32,099 bases of DNA from Polaromonas sp. (GTDB taxonomy: Bacteria > Pseudomonadota > Gammaproteobacteria > Burkholderiales > Burkholderiaceae_C), in NCBI GenBank assembly GCA_025363315.1, contig JANYED010000109.1:1-32099 (forward strand), in the 5' to 3' direction. The translations under genes were made by a program, and so were the position numbers. Positions 10,594 to 28,172 of the stretch are shown here, one piece after another (within the stretch, counting starts at the first letter, position 1; each line of letters starts with the position of its first letter). A model generated the notes under the pieces. The model saw only the letters and a program-made list of their open reading frames with translations, was not told the DNA's origin and ran no database searches.

Positions 10594-11781
10594 TTATTCA
10601 ACCACCGGTATTCGCGTCGCTGGCGGCGTATTACGGCTGCGCCCACAGCGCACCAAGCCGTCAATCATGACCATGCCCACGCCGGGCAGGTCGCCACGGG
10701 TGATGCTGTCCAACATGTCGCTACCGGCCGAGTGCTGGGCTTTGTCTAAAAACACAAAGTCTGCTGCGCGGCCGACTTCAATCAGCCCGCAGTTCAGGCC
10801 GCGTATGCGTGCGGTGTTGCCTGTGGCAAAGCAAAACACCAGTTCTGGCGCAATGTTGCCCAGCGCTGACAAAAGCGAAATCATGCGCAGCATGCCCAGC
10901 GGTTGCACGCCAGAGCCAGCCGGGCCGTCTGTGCCCAAAATCACGCGGTGCGGGCATTTGAGTTGTAGCGCCGCCTGAGCCGCTGCAATCGCGACTTTTT
11001 CATTGCCGTTGTGCACAATTTCAATTGCGCGCGAAGACTTTTCACACAGTTCGCACACGTGTTGCTCTGACAATGATGTGTGGCCGCCATTAATGTGGCC
11101 AATCACATCGGCGTCGGCCTCCAGCACCGTGTCTTTGTCAATGTAGCCGGAGCCTGGCACTGACGGGCCACCCGTATGGATGGTGCTTTGAATGCCGTAC
11201 TTGCGCGCCCAGCCGACCATTTCTTTGGCCTCGTTACCTGCCTTGACGGTCCCCAGGCCGACTTCACCCAAGAGCGTCACGCCGGCGTCGGCCAGGTCTT
11301 TAAAGTCCTGCTCGACCATGCCTTTTTCAATGATGGGTGCGCCTGCAATCACCTTCACACCGCCAGGACGAAAGTTGTCGAATGCACGCTGCGCCGTGAT
11401 GGCCAAGGCTTTTAAACCGACAATGTCTTTGGGCCTGCCGGGCAGATGGACTTCACCCGCCGACACCATAGTCGTCACGCCGCCATGCATGGTCGACTCA
11501 ATCCAACCCAGCTGGTTTTGGCGTGGTGTCCAGTCGCCAAATACCGGGTGAACGTGGCTGTCAATCAAGCCTGGGCAGACACAAGTTTGTTGCGCCTCAA
11601 TCACTGTGGTTGCATGGCTTTGGTCGCAGTCTTTGGCTTTGCCAACAGCCACAATCAGCCCGTCGTTGATGACGATGGTATCTGCATCAAGAATGGGCTG
11701 GTCAATATCGCCCGACAGCAGCAAGCCGATGTTTTTGATGACGACTTTGCCGGATACGCCGGTGGTTTGTAGCTCTGCCAT
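10594..11781 (-). CDS. ena: Enamidase (1,4,5,6-tetrahydro-6-oxonicotinate amidohydrolase)
   Basis: Predicted 395 residues, amidohydrolase superfamily. As I remember the Eubacterium barkeri enamidase sequence, the similarity is unmistakable: IKNIG near the N-terminus, HGGVTTMVSAGE, HLPGRPKDIVGLKALAIT, GGVKVIAGAPIIEKG, GEVGLGTVK, IHTGG, HINGG and the terminal RNTPPA. Visible metal and catalytic residues are H76 and H78 (HVH), E173 (GEVGLG), H202, H229 and D285 (GTDGP). The E. barkeri enzyme is an Fe-Zn hydrolase that opens the reduced ring to 2-formylglutarate and ammonia. The gene is 17 bases after tetR with an AAAGG ribosome site, and is divergent from hnr, whose product makes its substrate. 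Cytoplasmic; no signal peptide. Confidence 0.9.
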   Translation of the reverse strand: MAELQTTGVSGKVVIKNIGLLLSGDIDQPILDADTIVINDGLIVAVGKAKDCDQSHATTVIEAQQTCVCPGLIDSHVHPVFGDWTPRQNQLGWIESTMHGGVTTMVSAGEVHLPGRPKDIVGLKALAITAQRAFDNFRPGGVKVIAGAPIIEKGMVEQDFKDLADAGVTLLGEVGLGTVKAGNEAKEMVGWARKYGIQSTIHTGGPSVPGSGYIDKDTVLEADADVIGHINGGHTSLSEQHVCELCEKSSRAIEIVHNGNEKVAIAAAQAALQLKCPHRVILGTDGPAGSGVQPLGMLRMISLLSALGNIAPELVFCFATGNTARIRGLNCGLIEVGRAADFVFLDKAQHSAGSDMLDSITRGDLPGVGMVMIDGLVRCGRSRNTPPATRIPVVE

Positions 11782-11798
11782 GTTGCGCCTTTAGAAAT

Positions 11799-12425
11799 TC
11801 AAAGTTTTAACAAAACGTTGCGCCGCACCGCACTGCTGATAAAAGATTGCCACGCCTCAATCGCCTGCGGCGTTTGCAGGTTTTCACCCAAAAAGGCCGA
11901 TAGGGTGTAGCGGTTTGACATATAAAAATAAGCCGTTGCCACGATTAACAGGTAAACATTGCGTGCCGAAACATCTTTGCGAAACATGCCTTGCGCTACG
12001 CCGTTTTTCAGCAGTTCGCTGATGATGGCAATGGCGGGTGACGAATATTCGCGCGCACGCTCAGACTTGGCAATATGCTTGCCGCGCTGCAAGTTCTCGG
12101 TGTTCAGTAAGGTGATGAACTCAGGGTGCTTGCGGTAGTACGACAGCACAAATCCAATGACTTCGTTCAAGCCCTCAACTGGCTGACTGGTGTTGAGCTT
12201 GAGTTTGAGTTCGGCATCGTTCATGCGGCGATAGGCGTTTTCCAGCACTTCAATGAACAGGCCTTCCTTGCTGCCGAAGTAGTAGTAAATCATCCGGTCT
12301 ACGGATTTGGCTGACTTGGAAATCTTCTCCAAACTGCCGCCGTCATACCCATAGCGCGCAAACACTTTGGTTGCCGCTTGCAGAATGTTGTCGCGGGTGT
12401 TGGCCGTAGCTGCTTTGACAGTCAT
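11799..12425 (-). CDS. TetR-family regulator, probable controller of the nicotinate genes
   Basis: Predicted 208 residues. The N-terminal helix-turn-helix is clear (NILQAATKVFARYGYDGGSLEKISKSAKS, then YYYFGSKEGLFIEVLE), followed by an all-helical ligand-binding domain. It heads a two-gene unit with enamidase and faces the long plus-strand nicotinate operon across a 118-base gap that holds a palindrome at 12490-12507. In Pseudomonas putida the nicotinate hydroxylase genes are controlled by the TetR-type repressor NicS, which responds to 6-hydroxynicotinate and nicotinate. A similar role here is inference from position and family, not from recognisable orthology. Confidence 0.85.
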   Translation of the reverse strand: MTVKAATANTRDNILQAATKVFARYGYDGGSLEKISKSAKSVDRMIYYYFGSKEGLFIEVLENAYRRMNDAELKLKLNTSQPVEGLNEVIGFVLSYYRKHPEFITLLNTENLQRGKHIAKSERAREYSSPAIAIISELLKNGVAQGMFRKDVSARNVYLLIVATAYFYMSNRYTLSAFLGENLQTPQAIEAWQSFISSAVRRNVLLKL

Positions 12426-12452
12426 GGGGTTCTCAACACATCAAAATTGCTG

Positions 12453-12481
12453 TTGCATTGATTAGCAGGATACGCTATATT
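12453..12481 (+). promoter_or_regulatory. Candidate promoter of the nicotinate operon
   Basis: TTGCAT (12453-12458) and TATATT (12476-12481, 5 of 6 to the consensus -10) are separated by exactly 17 bases. The -35 is weak (3 of 6), as in many regulated promoters. It faces hnr, whose ATG is 62 bases beyond the -10. The palindrome at 12490-12507 would lie at about the transcription start. Confidence 0.45.
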
Positions 12482-12489
12482 CAAAATAA

Positions 12490-12507
12490 ATGTAGTGGTT
12501 GCTACAT
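12490..12507. promoter_or_regulatory. Candidate TetR-type operator in the tetR-hnr divergent region
   Basis: ATGTAGTGGTTGCTACAT is an inverted repeat with perfect 6-base arms (ATGTAG and CTACAT) around a 6-base centre. It sits between the divergent tetR and hnr genes, just downstream of the predicted hnr -10, where bound repressor would block transcription. It is the strongest palindrome I found in this gap. Confidence 0.5.
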
Positions 12508-12543
12508 ATTGTATGAAAAACGGATTGGGATTTCTGTCTGTCA

Positions 12544-14088
12544 ATGCCTGAGCACACCAAAACCGATGGCCTGCCCGAGCGGTACAACTCCAGCGCCGAC
12601 AAAGCAGCGACAGGGAAGATTGCGTGCAACGCCTGCCCCGTGCTGTGCCTGATATCGGATGGCCGCAGCGGGGCGTGTGATCGGTATGCCAACCGCGGCG
12701 GAAACTTGATTCGCGTCGATCCGGTCATTTTCTTGCGCCGTACATTAAAAGATGACGAGTCGCGGTTGGTGCCGTTCAGCGCTGATCAAGCGTGGAGCGA
12801 TGAACCGGTCAACAACAACGAGGTGTTTGTCACTGGCGTCGGATCATCCACCACCTACCCCGACTACAAACCTGCCCCTTTTATCGTTTCATCCCAGGTC
12901 GCAGGGGTTGACATGGTGACAGTCGTCACCGAAGGAATTTTCAGCTATTGCAGCCTGAAAGTAAAAATCGACACCGATCGGTTTTTGGGCGCAGAGCAAG
13001 CCAACGTCCGCTGCAAAGGCGAGGTGGTGGGCCATGTCACTACAGCCGAATATGGTTCGCAAATGTTGTCACTTGGCGGCGTGCATCACCTGACGGGTGG
13101 CAGTAAAAAAGAAGGCCGCACCACGATGGAGATGATGCTGGCGTTGGGCAACAAGCAGGCGGTTGAATTAACGATTGATGGCGGCTCGCAAATCGTGATT
13201 CAGGCGGGTAAGGCGCCTGTTGTTAACGGGGTGGAAGAAAAACGCATGCGCGTCGGTTGCGGTTCGGCGGCGATTGGTATATTTGCCCAGCAGTTCGACG
13301 GTCTGGCGGACGAGGTAGTGGTCGTGGATGACCACATTACCGGCGTGTTGACCGAGCACCAGGCGGGTCGTTGCCTGGATATGCGTCCATCTGGCATCCA
13401 AATGAATGGGCGCAAGTCCACACCGGGCCGCTACTTTCAAGTCGCCAACCCAGGCACCGGCTGGGGCGGCACGGACATTTCTGACCCGCTGTCCATCATC
13501 GAAGCCTGGGACGCTGCCACGGCCTGGCCTGGCTTGCGGCTTCTGATGACATCAACTACCGGTGAGCATGCCAGCTGGTTCGTGCTTGACGATGCTTTAA
13601 AACCCATTGAGCAAGCCATGCCGCCTGAAGTGCAAACCGTGATTGACCGGATTGGCGAGAACTGTGAGCCGTCTTTGTGCACGGTGCTGTTTTTAGGCGG
13701 TGCGGGCGGCAGCCTACGTGCCGGCGTCACTGACAACCCAGTGCTACTGACCCGAGCCATCAAAGACGCGTTGGTCAATGTGACTTGCGGCGGCGCACCC
13801 GCTTATGTGTGGCCAGGTGGCGGCATTACCGTGATGGTGGATGTGATGCGCATGCCGGACAACAGCTTTGGTACTGTGCCCACGCCCGCTATCGTTGCGC
13901 CGATTGAGTTCAGCATGAGCCTTGGCAACTACCGCGCTTTGGGTGGGCACATGGCGCATGTACGAACGCTGAGCGAGGCTTTGCGCAGCGGTGCCTGGCA
14001 CAACGATGGCGCACCGACTAATTTTCAATGGCAAGCCGCCCAGCCGACCAATGCGTGGCCGCTGGGTACCCCGCCCATGCTGGGATGA
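12544..14088 (+). CDS. hnr: 6-hydroxynicotinate reductase
   Basis: Predicted 514 residues. An N-terminal four-cysteine motif, C28-X2-C31-X3-C35-X9-C45, suggests a [4Fe-4S] cluster. Seven further cysteines are scattered. The rest contains glycine-rich stretches (LSLGGVHHLTGG, FLGGAGGSLRAG, VWPGGGITVMVDV). I assign it to the 6-hydroxynicotinate reductase family from overall character and from its divergent pairing with enamidase, which acts on its product. The E. barkeri enzyme reduces 6-hydroxynicotinate to 1,4,5,6-tetrahydro-6-oxonicotinate and carries covalent flavin, one [2Fe-2S] and two [4Fe-4S] clusters. Here only one clear cluster motif is visible and no ferredoxin gene lies nearby. The following gene overlaps by 4 bases (ATGA). 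No strong ribosome site precedes the ATG (GGGA lies about 13 bases away). Confidence 0.75.
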   Translation: MPEHTKTDGLPERYNSSADKAATGKIACNACPVLCLISDGRSGACDRYANRGGNLIRVDPVIFLRRTLKDDESRLVPFSADQAWSDEPVNNNEVFVTGVGSSTTYPDYKPAPFIVSSQVAGVDMVTVVTEGIFSYCSLKVKIDTDRFLGAEQANVRCKGEVVGHVTTAEYGSQMLSLGGVHHLTGGSKKEGRTTMEMMLALGNKQAVELTIDGGSQIVIQAGKAPVVNGVEEKRMRVGCGSAAIGIFAQQFDGLADEVVVVDDHITGVLTEHQAGRCLDMRPSGIQMNGRKSTPGRYFQVANPGTGWGGTDISDPLSIIEAWDAATAWPGLRLLMTSTTGEHASWFVLDDALKPIEQAMPPEVQTVIDRIGENCEPSLCTVLFLGGAGGSLRAGVTDNPVLLTRAIKDALVNVTCGGAPAYVWPGGGITVMVDVMRMPDNSFGTVPTPAIVAPIEFSMSLGNYRALGGHMAHVRTLSEALRSGAWHNDGAPTNFQWQAAQPTNAWPLGTPPMLG

Positions 14089-15017
14089 TGGCCGCTATGC
14101 AAGCACAATGCGCTCGATTGCCAGACGGCCGCTTGCATTTTCACCACGGGCCGATGGACATCATCATTGGGGCTGAGGGTAATTTGGCGGCGTTGACTGC
14201 AGCTCATCAAGGGGCCTGGGAGCGCTTCAAAACCATATTGGAAGAGCTGGTGCAAGAGCTGTCCGCACTTCGCCGTCCTGTTCAGGGTGCGTGCCCTGTA
14301 GCTGGCCCGATTGCCAAGCGCATGTGGTCTGCCTGCCAGCCTTATCAAGCCAGTTTCATCACGCCCATGGCTGCGGTGGCGGGTTCTGTAGCGCAAGAGT
14401 TGCTGCGCTATTACGTAGTACCCGGCATCAAACGCGCGTGGGTCAACAACGGCGGGGATATCGCTATTCATCTTGCGGCAGATGAGTCCATCCGTGCGGG
14501 GCTTTACAGCAACTTGGCTCGCTTCAATGCGCAGCAGCTTCAAAAGGGCATCACAGTTGATGGGCAGTTTGAAGTGCACAGCAGCTCACCCGTTCGCGGC
14601 GTGGCCACCAGCGGTTGGCGTGGGCGCAGCTTTTCGCTGGGCATTGCTGACAGTGTTACGGTTTTGGCTGCGACGGCCGCCCAGGCCGATGCCGCGGCCT
14701 CTGTCATCGCCAATGCCGTCAACATCAACGACTCTCGCGTCATCCGCCGCCCCGCTTGCGAATTGAAAGACGACGCCGATCTGGGGGCTATCGAGGTGAC
14801 GATTGATGTACCGTCACTTGAAACGGACTTGGTAGATCAGGCGCTGGCCGCTGGGCTGGCTCGTGCGCTCGTGCTGGGTGCTCAAGGCTTGATTTGCACG
14901 GCGGTGCTGGTCTGTCAGAACCGTTGCCTAAGTACCGAGATGACGACTGAAAACACCTTCGACTTACCGGCACACGAGCATGAGACCATCGCAGCGCTGC
15001 GAAGGGAATACGCATGA
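14085..15017 (+). CDS. UPF0280 family protein (ApbE-like fold), candidate flavin transferase
   Basis: Predicted 310 residues. UPF0280 hallmarks are HHGPMDIIIGAEG near the N-terminus, ITPMAAVAGSVAQELL, VNNGGDIAI (from residue 120), GVATSGWRGRSFSLGIADSVTVLA and AAQADAAASVIANAV. Structural classifications place this family beside ApbE, the enzyme that attaches FMN covalently to Thr or Ser; NNGGDI, ATSG and the DSVTV...AD stretch recall ApbE motifs. The start is set by the ATGA overlap with hnr. Since the E. barkeri 6-hydroxynicotinate reductase has covalently bound flavin, tight coupling to hnr suggests that this protein flavinylates the reductase. That is inference; the family call is firm. Confidence 0.85.
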   Translation: MMAAMQAQCARLPDGRLHFHHGPMDIIIGAEGNLAALTAAHQGAWERFKTILEELVQELSALRRPVQGACPVAGPIAKRMWSACQPYQASFITPMAAVAGSVAQELLRYYVVPGIKRAWVNNGGDIAIHLAADESIRAGLYSNLARFNAQQLQKGITVDGQFEVHSSSPVRGVATSGWRGRSFSLGIADSVTVLAATAAQADAAASVIANAVNINDSRVIRRPACELKDDADLGAIEVTIDVPSLETDLVDQALAAGLARALVLGAQGLICTAVLVCQNRCLSTEMTTENTFDLPAHEHETIAALRREYA

Positions 15018-15658
15018 TCGAGATACGCCGGATCTTCACCCATGTAGAGTTAATTGCCCACGAGTTTGGCCCACCGCCCACCGAGCCATTGCTGCGCGGT
15101 GCAATAGGCATCGTCATGACCAACCCCTATGCAGGACGCTATGAGTCCGATATTTTGCCGATGATGGACGCGTTGGGTGGAGTCGGTGTTGACATGGCTG
15201 AACGATTGCGCGCTGCGATGGATGTGCCCGCTGAGCAGATTCAAGGATACGGCAAAGGTGCTATTGTGGGTGCCAATGGCGAGTTGGAGCACGGCGCGTT
15301 GTGGCATGTACCTGGCGGCTATGCGATGCGTGAGCTGCTGGGCTGGAAGGGCGACCGCAATGCCTATGTTCAGGGGAGTGCATCTCAAAGTGCGAGCGTT
15401 CAAACCGCAAATGCCTTGGCCATCGTGCCATCCACCAAAAAAGTCGGCGCACCCGGTACGGCACTCGATGTGCCGATGACCCACATCAACGCCAGCTATG
15501 TGCGCAGCCATTTTGATGCGATAGAAGTCCGCGTGCCCGGCGCACCAACGGCCGAGGAAATTGTTTTTATTCTCGCCATGAGCACCGGTGCCAGGATCCA
15601 CGCGCGCGTCGGTGGCCTGGCAGCAAGCGCCATCAGCAAATGGGACGGCCTGCGCTAA
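15014..15658 (+). CDS. DUF1185 (PF06684, 'amino acid synthesis') family protein, first of a tandem pair
   Basis: Predicted 214 residues. It shares with the next gene the motifs NPYAGRY, QGYGKGAIVGANGELEHGA, AIVPSTKKVGAPGTALDVP, YVRSHFDAIEVRV and terminal WDGLR. The start overlaps the UPF0280 stop by 4 bases (ATGA). DUF1185 structures have been described as a variant of the Bacillus chorismate mutase fold with no proven reaction; the family name reflects a guess. Compared with its neighbour it carries a longer N-terminal part and an insertion of about 10-15 residues (around WKGDRNAYVQGSASQ). Its place in a nicotinate operon suggests a catabolic step, possibly on 2-formylglutarate, or a structural partnership with the paralogue. 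No signal peptide. Confidence 0.85.
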   Translation: MIEIRRIFTHVELIAHEFGPPPTEPLLRGAIGIVMTNPYAGRYESDILPMMDALGGVGVDMAERLRAAMDVPAEQIQGYGKGAIVGANGELEHGALWHVPGGYAMRELLGWKGDRNAYVQGSASQSASVQTANALAIVPSTKKVGAPGTALDVPMTHINASYVRSHFDAIEVRVPGAPTAEEIVFILAMSTGARIHARVGGLAASAISKWDGLR

Positions 15659-15686
15659 GAACGCATCCCTGCACGCAAGGAAAAGC

Positions 15687-16271
15687 ATGAAAGCCCAAAT
15701 TCGCAAAATCATTGTTCAGGTCGACGAGGTTCATATCGAAATGGGTAAGACCATATCGCCGCCGACTCGGCGCGCATTGGCGATGGCTGTCATTCACAAC
15801 CCGCTGGCAGGCAGCTATGCCGAAAACCTGGACGGGCTGATTGCCATCGGCGAAGAGCTAGGAGGTTTACTGGGTGACAAGTGCGTCAAGGCACTGGGCA
15901 TTGCACCGGGCGAAGCACAAAGCTATGGCAAGGCAGCCATCGTGGGCGAGGCTGGCGAGATTGAACACGCCGCCGCCATCCTGCACCCCAAGCTCGGTGC
16001 GCCGCTGCGGGTGGCCGTTGAAAAGGGCGCGGCCTTGGTGCCATCCAGCAAAAAGCGTGGTACGTTGGGCACAGCGATTGACGTGCCGCTGGGCCACAAA
16101 GATGCTGCCTTTGTGCGCAGCCACTTTGATGCGATGGAAGCGCGGGTATCGGACGCCCCGCGCGCCAACGAGATTGTAGTGGCGGTTGTCGTGACTGACA
16201 GCGGCCGGCCGCTGGCGCGCGTAGGTGGCTTGCAAGCGCATGAGGCCAAAGGAATAGATGGCTTACGCTAA
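15687..16271 (+). CDS. DUF1185 (PF06684) family protein, second of a tandem pair
   Basis: Predicted 194 residues, close to the usual family length. Conserved motifs are NPLAGSY, SYGKAAIVGEAGEIEHAAAILHP, ALVPSSKKRGTLGTAIDVPLGHKDAAFVRSHFDAMEARV and the terminal GIDGLR. The frame is open further upstream, but the ATG at 15687, preceded by AAGGAAAA, gives a protein that aligns with the paralogue from its first residues (MKAQIRKI against MIEIRRI). The gap to the first copy is 28 bases. The two proteins keep the same His, Lys, Asp and Arg residues in the shared motifs, so neither looks degenerate; they may form a mixed oligomer or act on successive intermediates. Function unknown. Confidence 0.87.
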   Translation: MKAQIRKIIVQVDEVHIEMGKTISPPTRRALAMAVIHNPLAGSYAENLDGLIAIGEELGGLLGDKCVKALGIAPGEAQSYGKAAIVGEAGEIEHAAAILHPKLGAPLRVAVEKGAALVPSSKKRGTLGTAIDVPLGHKDAAFVRSHFDAMEARVSDAPRANEIVVAVVVTDSGRPLARVGGLQAHEAKGIDGLR

Positions 16272-16309
16272 TTTCAATGTCGATTTTTCATCACCCTCCA
16301 GGAGTTTTC

Positions 16310-17524
16310 ATGACCATACACTGCAGAACCCTCAACGCGCTGGCGCTAGCAACATTGATGGCCATTACGCTCACAGCGCAGGCGCAGAACACCATCAAGA
16401 TCGGCGAGATCAATAGCTACAAGGCGCAGCCCGCTTTTTTAGAGCCGTACAAAAAAGGCATGGAACTGGCGGTTGAAGAAATCAATGCTGCTGGCGGTGT
16501 GAATGGCAAAAAGATCGAGCTGATTATTCGCGACGACAACGCCAATCCCGGCGATGCAGTACGCGCAGCCGAAGAGCTGATCTCGCGCGAAAAAGTCGAT
16601 GTATTAACAGGTTCTTTTTTGTCCAACATCGGCCTGGCGCTAACTGATTTTGCCAAGCAAAAAAAGTTTTTCTTCCTTGCAGCTGAGCCGTTAACCGACA
16701 AAATCGTATGGCAAAACGGCAACCGCTACACCTTTCGCCTGCGCGCCTCGACTTATATGCAAACCTCCATGTTGGTGCCTGAAGCCGCCGCGATGAAGAA
16801 AAAGCGCTGGGCCATTATTTACCCCAACTATGAGTACGGTCAGTCGGCAGCCGCCAGCTTTAAGGCCTTGCTTAAAGCCGCACAACCGGATGTTGAGTTT
16901 GTGGCAGAGCAAGCCACTCCGCTGGGCCGTATTGACTCCGGAAGTGTGGTCCAAGCCGTAGCTGATGCGAAACCAGATGCGATTTTCAATGTGCTGTTCG
17001 GTGCTGACTTGTCTAAGTTTGTGCGTGAGGGCAACACGCGCGGTTTGTTCCAGGGGCGCGAAGTCGTCAGCTTGCTGACGGGCGAGCCAGAGTATTTAGA
17101 TCCACTGAAAGAAGAAACACCCAACGGCTGGCTGGTCACGGGCTACCCGTGGTATGGCATTCAAACGCCAGAGCACAAGGCTTTCTTTTTGGCGTACAAC
17201 GCCAAATTCAAAGACCACCCGCGTCTGGGTTCTGTAGTCGGCTTCACCGCCATCAAGTCTTTGGCTGAAGGCATGAAGAAGGCCAAATCTACTGACACTG
17301 AAAAAATGATCGCAGCGTTTCGCGGCCTGAAAGTCATTACCCCGTTTGGTCCGGCAACCTACCGTGCACAAGACCACCAATCAACCATGGGCGCTTATGT
17401 GGGTCGCACTAAAAATGACGGTGGCAAAGGCACCATGGTCAATTACCGCTACGTAGATGGTGCAAAAACGCAGCCTAGCGATGCAGAGGTCAAAAAACTT
17501 CGACCGCTTGAGGCGCAAAACTGA
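16310..17524 (+). CDS. Branched-chain-type ABC transporter periplasmic binding protein, probable nicotinate binder
   Basis: Predicted 404 residues with a Sec signal peptide (hydrophobic core ALALATLMAITLTAQAQ, cleavage near residue 24-26). The mature protein begins NTIKIGEINSYKAQPAF and shows the two-lobed LivJ/LivK type I binding fold: GMELAVEEINAAGGVNGKKIELIIRDDNANP, VDVLTGSFLSN, WAIIYPNYEYGQSAAASF. The ATG at 16310 is favoured over an earlier in-frame start at 16277 because CCAGGAG lies 5 bases before it. Permease and ATPase genes follow directly. Proteins of this group bind amino acids or aromatic acids; being inside the nicotinate operon suggests nicotinate, which is inference. Confidence 0.9.
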   Translation: MTIHCRTLNALALATLMAITLTAQAQNTIKIGEINSYKAQPAFLEPYKKGMELAVEEINAAGGVNGKKIELIIRDDNANPGDAVRAAEELISREKVDVLTGSFLSNIGLALTDFAKQKKFFFLAAEPLTDKIVWQNGNRYTFRLRASTYMQTSMLVPEAAAMKKKRWAIIYPNYEYGQSAAASFKALLKAAQPDVEFVAEQATPLGRIDSGSVVQAVADAKPDAIFNVLFGADLSKFVREGNTRGLFQGREVVSLLTGEPEYLDPLKEETPNGWLVTGYPWYGIQTPEHKAFFLAYNAKFKDHPRLGSVVGFTAIKSLAEGMKKAKSTDTEKMIAAFRGLKVITPFGPATYRAQDHQSTMGAYVGRTKNDGGKGTMVNYRYVDGAKTQPSDAEVKKLRPLEAQN

Positions 17525-17572
17525 AACACGCTTGCGTTAAATCGCGCACTGTACAGCTCAAGGCGACACAGC

Positions 17573-19483
17573 ATGAGTTTTTCTGGTCTTCTGGTTCAGT
17601 TGCTGAACGGTTTGGCGGGCGCGTCTTCATTGTTTTTGGTGGCTGCGGGTTTGTCGCTGATTTTCGGCGTCACCCGCATCGTCAACTTCGCGCACGGCTC
17701 GTTCTTTATGGTCGGTATTTATGTCGCCTATTCGCTGGTGGCCAATCTTGGCGGAGCGATTGGTTTTTGGCCATCGTTGTTGTTGGCTGCCCTGGCGGTT
17801 GGCGTACTGGGTGCGCTGGTTGAAATATTGATCTTGCGCCGTATTTATAAAGCACCCGAGCTGTTCCAGTTACTCGCTACCTTCGCGCTGGGGCTGGTAG
17901 TCAAAGACGCAGTGCTGTGGTTTTGGGGGCCTGAAGAATTGCTCGGCCCCAGAGCACCAGGCTTCACTGGCTCGGTGCTGCTATTGGGTAGGCAATTCCC
18001 AACCTACGATCTTTTTTTAATCGTGGCTGGCCCCGGTGTGCTGGGCTTGCTGTGGTTGCTGCTGACCAAAACCCGCTGGGGCACGCTGGTGCGTGCAGCC
18101 ACGCAAGATCGCGAAATGGTCAGTGCCCTGGGTGTGAATCAGGCCTGGCTTTTTACTGCCGTGTTTGCACTAGGCGCAATTCTGGCCGGGCTTGGTGGCG
18201 CGCTGCAATTGCCGCGCGAGCCCGCTAATCTGGACATGGACTTGAACATTATTGGCGCAGCTTTTGTAGTGGTGGTCGTCGGCGGCATGGGCTCAATCCC
18301 TGGGGCGTACGTTGCTGCGCTTTTAATAGCGGAGTTAAAAGCGATGTGTATCTGGCTTGGGTTGATTGAAATAGCCGGCGTTGCCATTTCTTTTTCAAAA
18401 CTTACGCTGGTGGTTGAATTTGTGGTCATGGCCGTAGTGCTGGTGGCCCGGCCCTGGGGCTTGTTCGGCCGGGCGCAAACGCCTGGTCGACATTCAGCCA
18501 AGGCCGAAGGCCCGCTGCGGTTGCCGGACGATCTGCAACGATATGGCGCCATCTTATTGATCGGCCTGTTGGTGTTGATGCCATCACTGACCGCTGCTTT
18601 TCCCTACTTGACAGTGCTGGCTATTGACCTCATGGTGGCGGCGCTGTTTGCCGTTAGCTTGCACTTCATCATGGGGCCTGCGGGCATGCATTCGTTTGGC
18701 CATGCGGCGTATTTTGGTTTGGGTGCGTATGCGGCGGCGCTGCTGGTACGCAAGCTTGCGATGCCGATGGAAGTTGCCCTGCTGGTAGCGCCATTGCTGG
18801 CAGCACTGGGGGCATTTATTTACGGTTGGTTTTGTGTGCGTTTGTCTGGTGTTTATCTAGCCATGCTCACGTTGGCGTTTGCGCAAATCACTTGGGCCAT
18901 TGCTTTCCAGTGGGACGCTGTCACGGGCGGCAGCAATGGGCTGACGGGTGTGTGGCCTGCCGAATGGCTAGCTGACAAGCAAATGTATTACTACCTGACG
19001 TTAGCCTTGGTCGTTGGTGGCGTGATGCTGCTGCACCGTTTTTTGCATTCCCCCTTCGGCTATGCCCTGCGCGCCTCGCGCGATTCGGTGCTGCGTGCCG
19101 ACGCGATTGGTATCGATGTTCGCCGTATCAGTTGGGCGGCGTTTGTAGTGGCTGGTGCTTTCGCCGGGCTGGCGGGTGCGCTGTATGCGTTTTCAAAAGG
19201 AAGTATTTCACCGGAAACACTGCACGTCAACCGCTCAATAGATGGCCTGGTCATGGTGCTGCTGGGTGGTATTCAAACACTGGCGGGTCCTATTGTTGGG
19301 GCTGTCACCTTCACCTGGCTGCACGACACGGTAGCCCGCAACACAGACTATTGGCGTGCCATGCTGGGCGCTATTGTTTTGATACTCGTGCTACTGTTTC
19401 CGCAGGGAATTGCAGGTTTTGTAAATCAGAAAATACAGAAGTTGCGCGGGCGAAAGGCTGAATTGAAAGAGGTTGCAGCATGA
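17573..19483 (+). CDS. Fused LivH-LivM permease of a branched-chain-type ABC importer
   Basis: Predicted 636 residues, about the sum of LivH and LivM, which are usually separate. Residues 1 to about 295 are LivH-like (SLIFGVTRIVNFAHGSFFMVGIY, TRWGTLVRAATQDREMVSALGVN, VVVVGGMGSIPGAYVAALLIAE). Residues from about 320 are LivM-like (HFIMGPAGMHSFGHAAYFGLGAYAAALLV, RLSGVYLAMLTLAFAQITWA, FGYALRASRDSVLRADAIGIDVRRI, VMVLLGGIQTLAGPIVGAVTF). The two halves are joined by a charged linker near RAQTPGRHSAKAEGPLRLPDDLQ. Many membrane helices are evident in both halves. The last codon overlaps livG (ATGA). It would form the channel of the importer for the operon's substrate. Confidence 0.92.
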   Translation: MSFSGLLVQLLNGLAGASSLFLVAAGLSLIFGVTRIVNFAHGSFFMVGIYVAYSLVANLGGAIGFWPSLLLAALAVGVLGALVEILILRRIYKAPELFQLLATFALGLVVKDAVLWFWGPEELLGPRAPGFTGSVLLLGRQFPTYDLFLIVAGPGVLGLLWLLLTKTRWGTLVRAATQDREMVSALGVNQAWLFTAVFALGAILAGLGGALQLPREPANLDMDLNIIGAAFVVVVVGGMGSIPGAYVAALLIAELKAMCIWLGLIEIAGVAISFSKLTLVVEFVVMAVVLVARPWGLFGRAQTPGRHSAKAEGPLRLPDDLQRYGAILLIGLLVLMPSLTAAFPYLTVLAIDLMVAALFAVSLHFIMGPAGMHSFGHAAYFGLGAYAAALLVRKLAMPMEVALLVAPLLAALGAFIYGWFCVRLSGVYLAMLTLAFAQITWAIAFQWDAVTGGSNGLTGVWPAEWLADKQMYYYLTLALVVGGVMLLHRFLHSPFGYALRASRDSVLRADAIGIDVRRISWAAFVVAGAFAGLAGALYAFSKGSISPETLHVNRSIDGLVMVLLGGIQTLAGPIVGAVTFTWLHDTVARNTDYWRAMLGAIVLILVLLFPQGIAGFVNQKIQKLRGRKAELKEVAA

Positions 19484-20259
19484 GCCTGCTCAAAGTCACG
19501 AACCTGGGTAAATCCTTTGGCGGCGTCAAGGCGGTTGACGGCATCAGCTTTGAGCTGGCTGCTGGCGAGCTGCTAGCTTTGATTGGCCCCAACGGCGCGG
19601 GCAAGTCCACCACCTTCAACATGGTCAATGGCCAGTTGCGGGCGGATATGGGCTCCATCACGCTAGACGGCCAAGAGTTGTTGAGCCTTGCACCGCGAGA
19701 TATCTGGCGCTTGGGTGTGAGCCGCACCTTTCAGATTGCGGAAACGTTTTTGTCGTTGACCGTGGTTGAAAACGTGCAGATGGCTTTGCTGTCGCGTGAC
19801 AAAAAACTGTATTCGTTTTTAAGCCGCGCTGCCCACTACAAACGTGAAGAAGCATTGGCCTTGCTAGACCAAGTCAGCATGAAGCCACAAGCTGACAGGG
19901 CCTGCAGCGTGCTGGCCTATGGCGACGTGAAGCGGGTTGAGTTGGCGATTGCTATGGCCAATGCGCCCAAGCTGCTGTTGATGGACGAGCCCACCGCAGG
20001 CATGGCTCCCAAGGAGCGTAACAACTTGATGGCGCTGACCAAGCAACTCGTGACCGAGCGCAACATGGCCGTGCTGTTTACCGAGCACAGCATGGACGTT
20101 GTGTTCGCCTATGCAGACCGCATGATTGTGCTGGCGCGTGGGCGCTTGATTGCAGGCGGCAAGCCACTTGAAATCCGCGACGATCCCAAGGTGCAAGAGG
20201 TGTACTTCGGAACTGGTAAGACGTTTGAGAAAACCTTAAAGCTGAAAGAGCCAGTTTGA
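19480..20259 (+). CDS. livG: ABC transporter ATP-binding protein, LivG type
   Basis: Predicted 259 residues. Walker A is IGPNGAGKSTTF, Walker B LLLMDEPTAGMAP, and the H-loop lies in VLFTEHSMDVVF. The signature segment reads LAYGDVKRVELA in place of LSGGQ, a common LivG variant. The C-terminal YFGTG is typical of LivG. It overlaps both neighbours by 4 bases and 1 base, so the permease and both ATPases are translated as a unit. It energises import of the operon's substrate on the inner face of the membrane. Confidence 0.92.
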   Translation: MSLLKVTNLGKSFGGVKAVDGISFELAAGELLALIGPNGAGKSTTFNMVNGQLRADMGSITLDGQELLSLAPRDIWRLGVSRTFQIAETFLSLTVVENVQMALLSRDKKLYSFLSRAAHYKREEALALLDQVSMKPQADRACSVLAYGDVKRVELAIAMANAPKLLLMDEPTAGMAPKERNNLMALTKQLVTERNMAVLFTEHSMDVVFAYADRMIVLARGRLIAGGKPLEIRDDPKVQEVYFGTGKTFEKTLKLKEPV

Positions 20260-20993
20260 TGTCGTGCGCTGATTTGTTGTTGAGTACGAAAAGCTTAAGC
20301 GGCTGGTATGGCGCGGCCCAAATTTTGTTTGACGTAAACCTGGAGGTCGGTCGCGGTGAAGTGGTGGCGTTAATGGGCCGAAATGGTGCGGGCAAGTCCA
20401 CCACACTTAAAGCATTGACGGGCATGCTGGACAAGCGTGGCGGCGCGATTCAGTTCATGGGTGCTGACATTTCAAAAAGTGAGCCGCACCGCGCAGGCCG
20501 AATGGGGCTGGGCTACGTGCCTGAAGACCGCCGCATTTTTACCGACCTGACGGTTATGGAAAATCTGGAAGTCGGCCGCCAAAGCCCGCGCCATTGGCCT
20601 GACGGCACAGCCGCGCCCGTGTGGACGCCCGAGAAGCTTTTCAAGCTCTTTCCCAATCTGGGTGAAATGCCGGATCGCCTGGGCGGCCGCATGAGTGGCG
20701 GGGAGCAGCAAATGCTGACAGTTGCTCGCACGCTGATGGGCAATCCGTATCTGGTGCTGCTCGACGAGCCGTCAGAAGGGGTCGCTCCTGTGATTGTTGA
20801 GCAAATGGTGCAAACTATCCTGGAGCTGAAATTGCGGGGCGTCAGCATTTTGCTGTGTGAGCAAAACTTGCATTTTGCAGAGCTGGTGTCTGATCGGGCC
20901 TATGTGCTCGAAAAGGGGCAAATCTGCTACCAGGCGTCGATGGCTGAGCTGTCAGCCAATCAAGATGTGCGGCGTGCGTATTTGACTGTTTGA
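20259..20993 (+). CDS. livF: ABC transporter ATP-binding protein, LivF type
   Basis: Predicted 244 residues. Walker A is MGRNGAGKSTTL, the signature RMSGGEQQMLTVART, Walker B LVLLDEPSEGVAP, and the H-loop region ILLCEQNLHFA, all normal for LivF. The ATG at 20259 overlaps the livG stop (TGATG); an in-frame TTG one codon earlier is less likely. It completes the five-component importer as four polypeptides. An 82-base gap follows before the nicotinamidase gene, with no convincing terminator or promoter. Confidence 0.92.
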   Translation: MSCADLLLSTKSLSGWYGAAQILFDVNLEVGRGEVVALMGRNGAGKSTTLKALTGMLDKRGGAIQFMGADISKSEPHRAGRMGLGYVPEDRRIFTDLTVMENLEVGRQSPRHWPDGTAAPVWTPEKLFKLFPNLGEMPDRLGGRMSGGEQQMLTVARTLMGNPYLVLLDEPSEGVAPVIVEQMVQTILELKLRGVSILLCEQNLHFAELVSDRAYVLEKGQICYQASMAELSANQDVRRAYLTV

Positions 20994-21075
20994 ATGATGC
21001 GTTTGACGCAGGCAATTCGCACCCATGGAGTAGTTCAAATGGGGTTATTCAGTCAACGATTTAAGGAGAAAGACC

Positions 21076-21804
21076 ATGTCATCATCCAATCGAAGAGTTT
21101 TACTGTCGTTGTCAGGCAGTGCCGCCCTGCTTGCAGCCTCAGGTTTACTAGGTCGTACCGCTTTTGCTGCTGGAAAAATCAAACCCAATGCCACCAGCGC
21201 CTTGGTCGTTGTAGATGTACAAAACTGTTTTGTCACGGGTGGAACGCTTCCGGTCAAAGGCGGAGAGGAGGTAGTGCCCATCATCAATACGCTGTCTGGC
21301 AAATTTGAGAACATTGTTGTCACGCAAGACTGGCACACCAAAGGGCACACGTCGTTTGCCAGCGCACACCCTGGCGAAAAGCCATTCGGCATGAAGAAAA
21401 TGTTTTACGGCAATCAGGTCCTATGGCCTGACCACTGCGTGCAAGGCACTGACGATGCTGCGCTGCACAAAGACTTGACGCTTGCGTCAGCCCAGCTCAT
21501 TGTGCGCAAAGGCTATCACTCAGGCGTTGACAGCTATTCAGCCTTCATGGAGGCTGACGGCAAAACACCCACCGGCCTTGCCGGGTACCTGAAGCAACGC
21601 GGCATTAAAACGGTTTTTTTGACAGGGTTGGCCACCGACTTTTGCGTGGCTTGGACCGCCACGGATGCCCGCAAACTTGGATTTGAAGCATTCGTGATCG
21701 AGGACGCAACCCGGGCCATTGATTTGAATGGTTCACTGGCTGCTGCGTGGAAAACCATGGCGGCCAAAGGCGTCAAGCGTATTCAGTCTGCCGACCTGGC
21801 CTAG
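21076..21804 (+). CDS. pncA: Nicotinamidase with a Tat signal peptide (exported)
   Basis: Predicted 242 residues, isochorismatase-like hydrolase fold. The N-terminus MSSSNRRVLLSLSG with a hydrophobic stretch and TAFAA is a twin-arginine signal, so the enzyme should act outside the cytoplasm, perhaps folded with its metal before export. Nicotinamidase residues are all visible: D47 (VVVDVQNCF), K145 (IVRKGYHSG) and nucleophile C190 (TGLATDFCV), with metal ligands D85, H87 (QDWHTKGHTSF) and H120 (WPDHCVQGT). It converts nicotinamide to nicotinate and ammonia. AAGGAGAAAG stands before the ATG. Lying between the importer and nicotinate dehydrogenase genes, it would feed periplasmic nicotinate to the ABC system. 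Other amides such as pyrazinamide are possible substrates. Confidence 0.9.
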   Translation: MSSSNRRVLLSLSGSAALLAASGLLGRTAFAAGKIKPNATSALVVVDVQNCFVTGGTLPVKGGEEVVPIINTLSGKFENIVVTQDWHTKGHTSFASAHPGEKPFGMKKMFYGNQVLWPDHCVQGTDDAALHKDLTLASAQLIVRKGYHSGVDSYSAFMEADGKTPTGLAGYLKQRGIKTVFLTGLATDFCVAWTATDARKLGFEAFVIEDATRAIDLNGSLAAAWKTMAAKGVKRIQSADLA

Positions 21805-21828
21805 CCTTTCGTTCTGGTGGTTGATGCA

Positions 21829-22320
21829 ATGCAGTCTCAGCCGCTTTCGTTGATGCTCAATTTCAAACTGAATGGCACAGAAAAAACTTCGCGAGTGTTT
21901 AAAGAAACGTCGCTGCTCAACCTACTGCGTAATGACTTTGAATTGAACAGCCCCAAATACGGCTGCGGGTTGGGTGAATGCGGCGCGTGTACAGTGCTGG
22001 TGGACGGGATAGCCGCGCGAGCTTGCGTCATGCCGGCTACAGGCGCTGACGGCCGAAGCATCAGCACGATTGAAGGTTTGGGTACGCCGGGCCACCTGCA
22101 TCCGATTCAACAGGCTTTCATTGACGAGCAGGCTGCCCAATGCGGCTATTGCTTGAGCGGCATGGTCATGATGTCTGTAGCACTCTTGAGTCGAAACCCC
22201 GATCCGACGGAAGCCGATATTCACCGTGAGTTGTCAGGCAACCTGTGCCGCTGCGGCACCCATGTTGAAATTGTCAAAGCCGTGCAGCGCGCTGCAGTGT
22301 TGATGAGGCACGCCGCATGA
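21829..22320 (+). CDS. nicA: Nicotinate dehydrogenase small subunit, two [2Fe-2S] clusters
   Basis: Predicted 163 residues. It is a xanthine dehydrogenase-family iron-sulfur subunit: plant-type cluster ligands C46, C51, C54 (GCGLGECGACTVLVDG) and C66, then the second cluster C105, C108, C140 and C142 (QCGYCLSGM and NLCRCGTHVEI). It resembles Pseudomonas putida NicA, including YGCGLGECGACT and QQAFIDEQAAQCGYC. No signal peptide is present, so the subunit is cytoplasmic unless carried by its partner. The ATG at 21829 has GGTGG about 9 bases upstream; a GTG at 21817 in the same frame is the alternative. The stop overlaps nicB by 4 bases (ATGA). It transfers electrons from the molybdenum centre of NicB. 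Confidence 0.9.
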   Translation: MQSQPLSLMLNFKLNGTEKTSRVFKETSLLNLLRNDFELNSPKYGCGLGECGACTVLVDGIAARACVMPATGADGRSISTIEGLGTPGHLHPIQQAFIDEQAAQCGYCLSGMVMMSVALLSRNPDPTEADIHRELSGNLCRCGTHVEIVKAVQRAAVLMRHAA

Positions 22321-25300
22321 CGCGTCGGGCAGATGTGGCGCGCAGTCGGGCAGATTTTCATGCTGCCACGGGCGTGCTGCTGGTAAAGCGAACGCCGCCG
22401 GTCGCTACGCCGCCTGCTCAAGGTCAGCCGCCCACCGTGCAAGCCAATCCGCTTGAGGGTGACGAAATACTGCTGGCGGTTTGGGACGACGGCAGCGTGA
22501 ATGGGCTGCATGGCCATGTTGATTTGGGCACCGGCATTGCTACAGCTTTGGTGCAAATCGTGGCGGAAGAGCTGGATGTTGATGTGGGCGACATCAACAT
22601 GCTGCTGGGTCACACCGCTAGCGTCCCAAACCAGGGCGCCACCATTGCCAGCGCGTCATTGCAAATTCATGCAACGCCTTTGCGTGCCGCTGCTGCGCAG
22701 GCGCGGGCCTGGCTGGTGGCGCGTGCGGCGGAGTTCCAAGTGTTGACTACTGACTATGCAAAGCTGCTGACTGGTCATGACGAGCTGCTGCTCGACTTCA
22801 ACACGCCGCTCAAGTCGCCCAGCGACTACCGTATCGTCGGCACCAGCACGCCTCGCATTGACATTCCCGCTAAAGTCACAGGCGCACTGACCTTTGTGCA
22901 CGACATGCGTGTTTCCGGCATGTTGCACGGCCGGGTGGTGCGGCCGCCGTATGTGGGTGCTGACCATGGCGACTTTATCGGCAACACGCTGCTGTCGGTT
23001 GATGAGTCCTCGATTGCTCACATCCCCGGAATTCGTGCCGTGGTGGTAATACGCGATTTTGTGGGCATCGTGGCCGAACGTGAAGAGCATGCCGACCAAG
23101 CCTTGCGTGAGCTGCGTGCGCACTGGAAGCCGTGGCCCGGCATGCCTGACCAAAGCGACTTGACGGCAGCCATCAAAAGCAACCCGTCCACCCAGCGCAG
23201 GCTGGTTGATGAGGGCAATGTTGATTCGGCCATGGCGGCAGCAGATCAAAAAATGCCGCGCAGCTACGTGTGGCCTTACCAGCTGCATGCGTCCATCGGC
23301 CCGTCATGTGCATTGGCTGATTGGCAGGTTGACGCCATGACCGTTTGGGCGGGCAGCCAAAACCCGCATGTGCTGCGCGCCGATTTGGCCCAACTCATGG
23401 GCTTGCCGGATACCCAAATCAACGTCATCCGCATGGAAGCGGCAGGCTGCTACGGCCGCAACTGCGCTGACGATGTAGCGGCTGATGCCGCGCTGCTGTC
23501 ACGCGCCGTGGGTGCGCCGGTTCGGGTTCAGCTCACGCGCGAACAGGAAAGCGCTTGGGAGCCCAAAGGCGCGGCGCAGCTGATGCAGGTCAACGGCGGC
23601 TTGAATGCTGATGGAACAGTTGCCGCGTACGACTTTCAAACCTCTTACCCGTCCAACGCATCGCCCACGCTGGCGCTGTTGCTCACCCGCACCATCGAGC
23701 CCGTAGCGCAGGCTTTCGAGATGGGTGACCGCACAGCCCGCCCGCCTTATGACTACCCAAACCTTCGCGTAGCTGTGAATGACATGGCGCCGCTGGTACG
23801 CGCCTCATGGCTGCGCGGTGTGTCGGCGCTGCCCAATTCGTTTGCGCATGAGTCCTACATAGACGAGCTGGCCACTGCTGCCGGAGTGGACCCGGTGGAG
23901 TTTCGCCTACGCTACCTGCAAGACCCACGCGCTGCCGAGCTGCTTAAGGCTACGGCTGACAAAGCCGGTTGGCAGGTGCACACATCGCCGCAAAGCCAAG
24001 CTGCACGAGGCGAAATCCTCAGCGGCCAAGGCGTCGGCTACGCCCGCTACAACCACAGCAAGTGGCCTGGCTTTGGCGCAGCTTGGGCGGCTTGGGTGGC
24101 AGATGTTGAAGTCAATCGCCGCACGGGCGAAGTGCACGTGCGCCGCGTGGTGGTGGGGCATGACACGGGCATGCTGATCAACCCGGCCGGTGTGCAGCAT
24201 CAGATTCATGGCAACGTGGTGCAAACCACCAGCCGCGCGCTGCTCGAGGAGGTCAAGTTCAACCCTGGCAGTGGAACCGTCGCCAACCTCGAATGGGGCA
24301 GCTACCCGATTTTGAATTTCCGTGATGTGCCGGTGATTGACATCGTCACCATGCCCCGCCCGGGTGAGCCGCCGCTCGGTGCGGGAGAGTCGTCATCCGT
24401 ACCCGGAACAGCCGCGATTGCCAACGCGATTTTTGATGCGACCGGTGTGCGCTTTCGCCAGCCACCCTTTACGCCTGAAGTGGTTCTGGCAGGCTTACAG
24501 GGGCTGAATAATGGCGGTTCAGGGTATAAAAAAGACCTGCAGCCCAATAAATACGGGCGCGAGCAGCTCCTGAATAATGAGCAAGTTGATATAAAAGTTC
24601 CAGCGTCAAGCATCTGGCCAACCACGAAAAAGCGCTGGCTTCAAGCAGGCGGCGTGCTTGCTGGCTTGTTTGGCGTGGCCATAGCAATGATCGGCTGGCG
24701 TTCAGTCATTGCGCCTGTGTCGCCGGCTTCTGCCAACATCTACTCCCTGGAGGTCATCGAGCGCGGCCGTCAGCTAGCCGCTTTGGGCAACTGTGTCGGC
24801 TGCCACACGGCGACCGACGGCGTGCCCAACGCAGGCGGCAGGGGGCTAGACACGCCTTTCGGTCAAATCTACAGCACCAACCTGACGCCAGATGCCACGG
24901 GCATCGGCAACTGGTCACTGCCCGCTTTTCAGCGTGCCATGCGTGAAGGCATTTCACGCGATGGGCATTATCTGTACCCTGCCTTCCCATACACCTCGTA
25001 TGCCAAAACCACCAGCGAGGACTTGACAGCGCTCTACGCTTACCTGATGGCGCAACCTGCGGTCAAGTCCAATCCGCCGCAAACCCAGCTGGCCTTCCCG
25101 TACAGCATTCGCCCGCTGATGGCGGTGTGGAACGGCCTGTTTCATGACATCTCACCCATCAAACTTGAAGCCGATCAAACCGCCGAGTGGAATCGCGGCA
25201 ACTACCTGGTCAACAGCTTGGGCCACTGCGGCGCATGTCACACGCCTCGCAATGCGTTGGGGGCAGAGCGGGGTGGACAGGCCTATCTGGCAGGCGCAGT

Positions 25301-25919
25301 GATTGATGGCTGGGAGGCACCCGCACTCACTGGCCTGTCTCGCGCGCCTGTGCCGTGGACAGTTGCTGAGCTGTACCGCTATTTGCGAGTTGGCTACACC
25401 CAGCAACACGGAATTGCCGCCGGGCCGATGGGCGCTGTGGTCAAAGAACTGGGTGCGCTGCCTGATGCTGACGTCTCTGCAATGGCCAACTACTTGGCTT
25501 CATTCACATCGCCAATCACCGACACGCAAAGCGACACCCGTGCTATGAAAGTAGTAGCTACGGCTCTGCAAAACGCAGGCGCCTTGCTGGGTTCAGGCCA
25601 GCGCTTGTTCAGCGGTGCATGCAGCGCTTGCCATCATGACGGTGACGGCCCCAAGCTGCTTGGCGTGAACCCGCCGCTGGCGTTAAACAGCAACCTGCAC
25701 AGCACCAGGCCAGACAATTTGATCAACATCATCTTGAGCGGCGTGCGTGAACCCGCCACGCAAGACATCGGCTACATGCCTGCTTTTAAATACGCGCTGA
25801 ATGACGCGCAAATCGCCGAGCTGGCCAACTACATGCGCAGCCGCTATGCGCCGGGTCAGCCTGCCTGGGGCAATCTGCCCGCTGACATTGCGCGGTTGCG
25901 CAAAGCCGCGACAGATTGA
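22317..25919 (+). CDS. nicB: Nicotinate dehydrogenase large subunit: molybdopterin domain, one membrane helix, three cytochrome c domains
   Basis: Predicted 1200 residues. Residues to about 735 are the molybdenum-cofactor domain of the isoquinoline 1-oxidoreductase type (GHVDLGTGIATALVQIVAEEL, WAGSQNPHVLRADLA, and the catalytic-glutamate motif PLGAGESS with E691). A single hydrophobic helix follows at about 776-796 (LQAGGVLAGLFGVAIAMIGW), preceded by KKR. Three CXXCH haem c motifs come next: CVGCH at 826-830, CGACH at 971-975 and CSACH at 1102-1106. Pseudomonas putida NicB has the same fusion and hydroxylates nicotinate to 6-hydroxynicotinate. There is no N-terminal Tat or Sec signal; the positive charges before the helix suggest the molybdenum domain is cytoplasmic and the cytochromes periplasmic. 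A dispersed repeat is read through at residues 740-752. The gene ends 2 bases from the convergent neighbour. Confidence 0.92.
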   Translation: MTRRADVARSRADFHAATGVLLVKRTPPVATPPAQGQPPTVQANPLEGDEILLAVWDDGSVNGLHGHVDLGTGIATALVQIVAEELDVDVGDINMLLGHTASVPNQGATIASASLQIHATPLRAAAAQARAWLVARAAEFQVLTTDYAKLLTGHDELLLDFNTPLKSPSDYRIVGTSTPRIDIPAKVTGALTFVHDMRVSGMLHGRVVRPPYVGADHGDFIGNTLLSVDESSIAHIPGIRAVVVIRDFVGIVAEREEHADQALRELRAHWKPWPGMPDQSDLTAAIKSNPSTQRRLVDEGNVDSAMAAADQKMPRSYVWPYQLHASIGPSCALADWQVDAMTVWAGSQNPHVLRADLAQLMGLPDTQINVIRMEAAGCYGRNCADDVAADAALLSRAVGAPVRVQLTREQESAWEPKGAAQLMQVNGGLNADGTVAAYDFQTSYPSNASPTLALLLTRTIEPVAQAFEMGDRTARPPYDYPNLRVAVNDMAPLVRASWLRGVSALPNSFAHESYIDELATAAGVDPVEFRLRYLQDPRAAELLKATADKAGWQVHTSPQSQAARGEILSGQGVGYARYNHSKWPGFGAAWAAWVADVEVNRRTGEVHVRRVVVGHDTGMLINPAGVQHQIHGNVVQTTSRALLEEVKFNPGSGTVANLEWGSYPILNFRDVPVIDIVTMPRPGEPPLGAGESSSVPGTAAIANAIFDATGVRFRQPPFTPEVVLAGLQGLNNGGSGYKKDLQPNKYGREQLLNNEQVDIKVPASSIWPTTKKRWLQAGGVLAGLFGVAIAMIGWRSVIAPVSPASANIYSLEVIERGRQLAALGNCVGCHTATDGVPNAGGRGLDTPFGQIYSTNLTPDATGIGNWSLPAFQRAMREGISRDGHYLYPAFPYTSYAKTTSEDLTALYAYLMAQPAVKSNPPQTQLAFPYSIRPLMAVWNGLFHDISPIKLEADQTAEWNRGNYLVNSLGHCGACHTPRNALGAERGGQAYLAGAVIDGWEAPALTGLSRAPVPWTVAELYRYLRVGYTQQHGIAAGPMGAVVKELGALPDADVSAMANYLASFTSPITDTQSDTRAMKVVATALQNAGALLGSGQRLFSGACSACHHDGDGPKLLGVNPPLALNSNLHSTRPDNLINIILSGVREPATQDIGYMPAFKYALNDAQIAELANYMRSRYAPGQPAWGNLPADIARLRKAATD
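24536..24570 (-). repeat. Dispersed 35-bp repeat, copy 3, inside the nicB coding sequence
   Basis: This copy is in reverse orientation and matches copy 1 at 33 of 35 positions. It encodes NicB residues about 740-752 ([10 protein letters not shown]) between the molybdenum domain and the membrane helix. Here it is read in a frame (AAT AAA TAC) that avoids the TAA that ends abmA in copy 2. Confidence 0.85.
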
Positions 25920-26668: not shown

Positions 26669-26788
26669 GCCTATATTTTGCTTGAATCCGCTTGAATCAG
26701 ATCCAGCTTTGTGCCTACAGCATCTGCTGCAAAACCGTCCCATAATAAAACGTTATTTAAGTTAATTCGAACCTGAAAAGAACTCACC

Positions 26789-27091
26789 ATGCTGTACAAA
26801 TTCAAATCCAAAAATGCCGGCGATGTCATCATGCTGGAGGTCAATGGTCGAAAGGTGCTGGAAGTGATCGGCAAGGATGCAGGGCCGACCGGCATCATTT
26901 TGGCGGCGCAAATGCCAGCGGCTGTCAAAGCGCTGCAAGATGCGATTGCGCTTGAAGAGTCACACGATGAAAATCATGACGAAAACGTGGTGCAGGGCGA
27001 TTCGCCCGGGCTGCGGCAGCGTGCGATGCCCTTTATCGACATGCTCCAGCGCAACCATAAAGCAGGAACTGATGTGACTTGGGGCGTGTGA
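26789..27091 (+). CDS. DUF1840 family protein
   Basis: Predicted 100 residues, the normal length. It has the family opening MLYKFKSKNAGDVIMLEVNGRKVLEVIGKD, then GPTGIILAAQMPAAVKALQDAI, an acidic His-rich linker (EESHDENHDENV) and a C-terminal RQRAMPFIDMLQRNHKAGTDVTWGV. DUF1840 is small, cytoplasmic, widespread in betaproteobacteria and of unknown function. It stands alone between minus-strand genes with its own upstream region, and ends 13 bases before the stop of the convergent Bug gene. Confidence 0.88.
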   Translation: MLYKFKSKNAGDVIMLEVNGRKVLEVIGKDAGPTGIILAAQMPAAVKALQDAIALEESHDENHDENVVQGDSPGLRQRAMPFIDMLQRNHKAGTDVTWGV

Positions 27092-27104
27092 GCCTCAGAT
27101 CGCG

Positions 27105-28127: not shown

Positions 28128-28172
28128 GGTCGATGCTTGAGAGGTGTGTCAGTCAGCTGCAGGCAATCGGCA

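Follow-up and report, generated by a model that had tools for sequence, protein, structure and literature searches.

A probable reductive nicotinate catabolic locus in Polaromonas sp. and the protein families that accompany 6-hydroxynicotinate reductase

The window analyzed in this study is a 32,099-nucleotide stretch of Polaromonas sp. DNA (contig C343); it belongs to a draft genome of 3.57 Mb in 386 contigs that is 95% complete, so the absence of a gene from this genome is not absolute. Genes for an enamidase, which would hydrolyze the ring (10594 to 11781), and for a TetR-family regulator (11799 to 12425; TetR_N and TetR_C_29 domains) lie on the reverse strand, and a predicted TetR operator (12490 to 12507) separates the regulator from hnr (12544 to 14088), a 6-hydroxynicotinate reductase gene by annotation family. 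This gene and those that follow are on the forward strand. A gene for a UPF0280 protein with an ApbE-like fold (14085 to 15017) shares its first 4 bases with the end of hnr, and two genes for PF06684 (“AA_synth”) proteins come next, at 15014 to 15658 (E value, 3.6e-64) and 15687 to 16271 (solved homologue 2QTP; E value, 3.4e-82); the frame of the second is open from a GTG at 15588, with the ATG at 15687 as the preferred start. According to their Pfam domains, the four genes spanning 16277 to 20993 encode an ABC importer, comprising a substrate-binding protein (16277 to 17524; Peripla_BP_6), a fused permease (17573 to 19483; BPD_transp_2 in two stretches), and two ATPases (19480 to 20259, ABC_tran and BCA_ABC_TP_C; 20256 to 20993, ABC_tran). 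The remaining genes encode a nicotinamidase with an N-terminal twin-arginine-like leader (21076 to 21804; PRK11609, 171.7 bits, just below the cut-off of 174), NicA, the 2x[2Fe-2S] subunit of nicotinate dehydrogenase (21817 to 22320; Fer2_2 and Fer2), and NicB, with molybdopterin and three cytochrome c domains (22317 to 25919; three CxxCH motifs). All of the genes that an earlier note on this DNA had claimed were found as open frames at or beside these positions, and NicA, NicB, the regulator, and the importer were borne out by their domains. The UPF0280 gene, the PF06684 pair, the TetR operator, and the nicotinamidase leader go beyond that note.

In the flanks of the locus, the reverse-strand genes from 4012 to 10510 encode a salicylyl-CoA 5-hydroxylase/oxidoreductase (PRK08255; 1357.6 bits against a cut-off of 1078), a MarR protein, an enoyl-CoA hydratase, an acyl-CoA dehydrogenase, and a benzoate-CoA-ligase-like protein, and they form a separate aromatic-CoA module. 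The stretch from 125 to 3501 holds a 755-residue frame (open to the edge, at position 2) for which neither Pfam nor NCBIfam gave a match; a gene for an OmpA-domain protein comes after it. Downstream of nicB, the reverse strand from 25922 to 32092 carries a 2OG-Fe dioxygenase, two TctC receptors, a PaaK-like ligase, and a further importer.

Hnr (514 residues) had no match in Pfam or NCBIfam and no convincing PDB relative in sequence or profile searches, and its predicted model (pLDDT 77) gave no clear fold match. Plasmid-borne homologues are 58 to 74% identical to it, many of them annotated as 6-hydroxynicotinate reductase, and 26 plasmid records match it over at least 80% of its length. The N-terminal motif C28-x2-C31-x3-C35-x9-C45 was invariant across 43 aligned sequences; it resembles the N terminus of weakly matching proteins that have a radical-SAM-like CxxxCxxC farther along the chain. 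A 2012 report gives the Hnr homologue of SG-6C as 42% identical to the Eubacterium barkeri enzyme (PMC3511419). The putative identification of the window protein as Hnr is based on this printed value and on the annotation family.

Full-length Hnr was found in 4 of 369 genomes of an even class sample, and in 32 of 398 genomes of an even phylum sample, and Hnr was present in 14 of 49 genomes of the same genus (its own genome counted); the Hnr and UPF0280 counts leave out weak matches far below full length (Hnr in G435 and G561, UPF0280 in G718 and G794) and four N-terminal-only Hnr matches in the class sample. In one genome (G459:C1:2969784-2971261) the Hnr match falls into two pieces in different frames, as might result from a split or a frameshift in the gene. 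The 48 hnr regions compared below comprise the window, 10 of the 26 plasmids, and 37 genome stretches, of which the phylum sample supplied 31 and the class and same-genus searches 6. A search of public genomes yielded at least 593 related stretches, the best 80 of which, mostly Burkholderiales by name, were analyzed. Among these best 80 of at least 593 loci, 50 exceed 21 kb; all 50 have UPF0280 together with one or more PF06684 matches, and NicA was present in 49, the enamidase in 48, TetR in 47, the substrate-binding protein in 40, NicB (at 400 bits) in 35, and the nicotinamidase in 27. The association of these genes across related loci exceeds chance; the Fisher values calculated here take no account of relatedness.

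The combination of genes, which the earlier note inferred from a biochemical scheme and presented as noteworthy, is not new. The 2012 report describes a conserved nicotinate cluster in Azorhizobium, Bradyrhizobium, Rhodopseudomonas, and SG-6C that has in common with the window the putative Hnr, the first three steps, an ABC importer, and conserved proteins of unknown function (PMC3511419). By comparison with that cluster, the window has a TetR regulator and an exported-type nicotinamidase and contains no ferredoxin-NADP reductase gene. The locus is an ordinary member of a pathway already in print, and it is common in Burkholderiales. Paraburkholderia xenovorans LB400 (L109), Azorhizobium ORS571, and Variovorax paradoxus are laboratory organisms that carry this cluster.

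The enamidase aligns end to end with the E. barkeri enzyme, a comparison proposed in the earlier note. In a phmmer search of the PDB, residues 11 to 391 of the 395-residue protein matched 2VUN, the E. barkeri enamidase (E value, 1.5e-111; 376.6 bits), and the next PDB match reached only 4.9e-6; the two aligned proteins share H-x-H, GEVGLG, HTGG, HINGG, and G-x-D motifs, which we take to be metal ligands of the amidohydrolase type. Among the 48 hnr regions, 17 have an enamidase, 16 have HyuA, none has both, and 15 have neither (some being cut by region ends); in the best 80 of at least 593 loci, the enamidase was found in 67 and HyuA in none at the thresholds used. The window has no HyuAB. For the HyuAB of Neorhizobium NCHU2750, the closest NCBIfam models are those of caprolactamase CapA and CapB, at 482.5 and 309.2 bits, both far below the cut-off of 1000. 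A caprolactamase-like HyuAB appears, from these matches, to replace the enamidase in other hnr regions, and an ATP-dependent lactam opener would fit the tetrahydro product chemically.

The twin-arginine-like leader of the nicotinamidase was seen by eye in the window and in 33 of the 35 Burkholderiales loci with this gene (L086 and L101 being the exceptions) among the best 80 of at least 593, and in 0 of 10 non-Burkholderiales-type nicotinamidases of the wider set. With regard to the first step, NicB is 64% identical to the NicB of a comamonad reductive cluster, 49 to 50% identical to that of two alphaproteobacterial reductive clusters, and 55 to 57% identical to that of Pseudomonas sp. BYT-5, Pantoea At-9b, and Azospirillum 4B, whose clusters also include NicX along with the remaining oxidative genes. 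The domains of NicAB and these identities place the pair among the molybdenum nicotinate hydroxylases, and the identities support nicotinate as the probable substrate without proving it. VanA-type Rieske oxygenase genes were observed in some alphaproteobacterial and other hnr clusters (L146, L153, L155, L187, and L188), where they may act on a methylated pyridine, for example trigonelline.

The Hnr of E. barkeri is ferredoxin dependent. In 62 of the best 80 of at least 593 loci, hnr is preceded within 1.5 kb by a ferredoxin-NADP reductase gene that points away from it, and such a gene was seen in 18 of the 48 wider regions. None adjoins hnr in the window, and a ferredoxin-NADP reductase encoded on contig C369 of the same genome is 82% identical to a cluster copy. 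Because of the frequent position of this gene beside hnr, we suggest NADPH, acting via ferredoxin-NADP reductase, as the driving force for the reduction by Hnr; the earlier description of a “fermentative” second step is misleading, since the neighboring gene suggests ordinary NADPH.

The predicted operator, ATGTAG-N6-CTACAT, is a perfect palindrome. With one letter left free, TGTAG-N6-CTACA is present in the 260 bases preceding hnr in 73 of 81 loci (the window and the best 80 of at least 593); the remaining 1,467,284 bases contain it 8 times, and none of 81 random pieces has it. The pattern was picked after the window palindrome and its variants had been viewed, and the 80 loci are related, so these statistics are descriptive. 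Four of the loci that lack the pattern (L047, L049, L101, and L113) also have no TetR match, with 10 kb upstream covered, and the other four (L055, L062, L090, and L091) do have one.

UPF0280 occurs in the same 32 of 398 phylum-sample genomes as full-length Hnr and in all 26 plasmids with hnr. It was absent near hnr in 2 of 48 regions (L189 and L192), and one plasmid, that of Hydrogenophaga BPS33 (L202), has UPF0280 without hnr; on this plasmid UPF0280 recurs in IS1071-linked units that also carry Rieske oxygenase and TctC genes. The family has the ApbE fold, which it shares with flavin transferases, and transfer of FMN to protein Thr or Ser is putative for UPF0280; the window protein alone gave no Pfam ApbE match. 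PF06684 was found in 31 of the 32 hnr-bearing phylum-sample genomes and in 28 of the 366 others, and it was missing from 4 of the 48 hnr regions. The two PF06684 queries match each other, so locus counts do not separate the pair; in L046, L062, L081, L090, L091, L093, and L095, all from the best 80 of at least 593, a separate first copy was not seen beside hnr and the second copy was present.

We consider it highly probable that the locus in the window serves reductive nicotinate catabolism of the Azorhizobium/E. barkeri type, because of the 2VUN homologue, the 55 to 57% identity of NicB, and the lack of any NicX match in the 95%-complete genome; the pathway proposed in the earlier note is thereby supported. 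What the comparison shows directly is homology, gene order, co-occurrence, and folds; all of the reactions, the electron path from NADPH, the functions given to UPF0280 and PF06684, export, and regulation are inferred from these. In the proposed scheme, a Tat-exported nicotinamidase would hydrolyze nicotinamide, probably outside the cytoplasm, and the ABC importer would take up the nicotinate. NicAB would convert nicotinate to 6-hydroxynicotinate, passing electrons to its own c-type hemes, and Hnr, with its [4Fe-4S]-type N-terminal cysteine motif, would draw on NADPH, through a ferredoxin-NADP reductase encoded elsewhere in the genome, to reduce the ring to 1,4,5,6-tetrahydro-6-oxonicotinate. 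The enamidase would then open the lactam and release ammonia, and conversion to glutarate would follow in an Azorhizobium-type pathway. UPF0280 most likely supplies or assists flavin on Hnr in an ApbE-like manner, and for the PF06684 pair our best guess is a role on the ring-opened enamine or imine or its tautomers. The TetR protein is predicted to repress hnr and, divergently, itself and the enamidase through 12490 to 12507. The type of the enamidase and, by annotation, that of Hnr are common to this locus and the E. barkeri nicotinate fermentation, whereas the first step in the window is the cytochrome-linked NicAB; the fermentation has later B12-dependent steps, including 2-methyleneglutarate mutase. 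The reductive route would represent a widespread aerobic use of vitamin B3 in Burkholderiales, beyond the rhizobia, and three families without a role (the Hnr fold, UPF0280, and PF06684) become tied to one testable pathway.

NicX is the 2,5-dihydroxypyridine dioxygenase of the P. putida-type oxidative pathway. The oxidative nic cluster of Pseudomonas (compared here in Pseudomonas sp. BYT-5, Pantoea At-9b, and Azospirillum 4B) shares NicAB with the window but cleaves the ring by oxygen, whereas here nicX is lacking and the ring is proposed to be reduced instead. That the genome relies on this oxidative pathway, with the locus only accessory, is extremely improbable, even though a gene could be missing from the draft. 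Of the later nic genes that the earlier note gave as lacking, NicX, NicC, and NicE were sought across the genome: the BYT-5 NicX query had 0 matches in the 95%-complete genome (positive controls, 54 to 55% in same-genus genomes G380 and G414), and the best NicC match was only 34%. A NicE-like (maleate-isomerase-like) gene was found in two pieces (63% and 50%) that span the joint of contigs C277 and C292 (the ends of L211 and L212), which overlap by exactly 141 bases. This gene favors the oxidative alternative, but it sits between hisD and hisC, outside any nic cluster. Within the genus, NicX at 48% or more occurs in three genomes, one of them partial, with no overlap with the 14 of 49 Hnr genomes; against this argument, 6 of these 14 hold distant NicX relatives (37 to 39%). 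NicX matches occur in 11 of the 32 hnr-bearing phylum-sample genomes: at 54% and at 47% in one genome each and at 35 to 37% in the other nine. It is also improbable, if less extremely so, that the locus targets another substituted pyridine (6-chloronicotinate, trigonelline, or isonicotinate) and that nicotinate is minor. The molybdenum hydroxylase does differ among the 48 hnr regions (NicB type in 15 and XDH type in 25), some alphaproteobacterial hnr clusters include the VanA-type Rieske oxygenase, and SG-6C channels 6-chloronicotinate into the same route (PMC3511419). The window cluster, however, has no Rieske oxygenase, its operon includes a nicotinamidase, and its NicB is close to that of three NicX-bearing clusters.

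A different question is whether UPF0280 and PF06684, instead of serving in maturation or further downstream, belong to the reductase itself as subunits. The tight adjacency of hnr, UPF0280, and PF06684, with overlapping starts, and their co-occurrence would suit subunits, but PF06684 is also found in genomes without hnr, and the fold of UPF0280 is that of flavin transferases; we regard the subunit explanation as unlikely. We tentatively put forward, as a possibility still open to considerable doubt, that hnr, UPF0280, and PF06684 constitute a conserved ring-reduction module that Pseudomonadota combine with exchangeable partners. The module would be preceded by one of two kinds of molybdenum hydroxylase and followed by one of two unrelated lactam openers, an enamidase of the zinc/iron type or an ATP-dependent caprolactamase-like HyuAB. 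In such a module, UPF0280 would be a dedicated ApbE-like flavin inserter for Hnr, NADPH-ferredoxin reductase would give the electrons, and PF06684 would be an enzyme of N-heterocycle enamines or imines. If this is true, functions could take the place of the “AA_synth” label and of the “hypothetical protein” tag of UPF0280, and opening of the lactam would have two solutions, one of them ATP dependent.

The amino-acid synthesis in the name of PF06684 goes back to neighbors that resembled importers of branched-chain amino acids. Among solved structures, the closest homologue of the second PF06684 copy is 2QTP, which is SPO0826 of Silicibacter pomeroyi; the authors of that structure inferred an amino-acid role from SPO0822 to SPO0825, called branched-chain amino-acid importers (PMC2954203). 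Since importers of this kind stand in a nicotinate context in the hnr clusters, the amino-acid role given to SPO0826 may rest on a nicotinate importer. Outside hnr clusters, PF06684 genes were found among flavin-dependent oxygenases, hydrolases, and aldehyde dehydrogenases (L203 to L207). On a plasmid of Arthrobacter dokdonellae (L205), two PF06684 genes lie beside an LLM flavin oxygenase, a flavin reductase, and an aldehyde dehydrogenase, a gene set that we take to be, in appearance, a pyridine-type operon.
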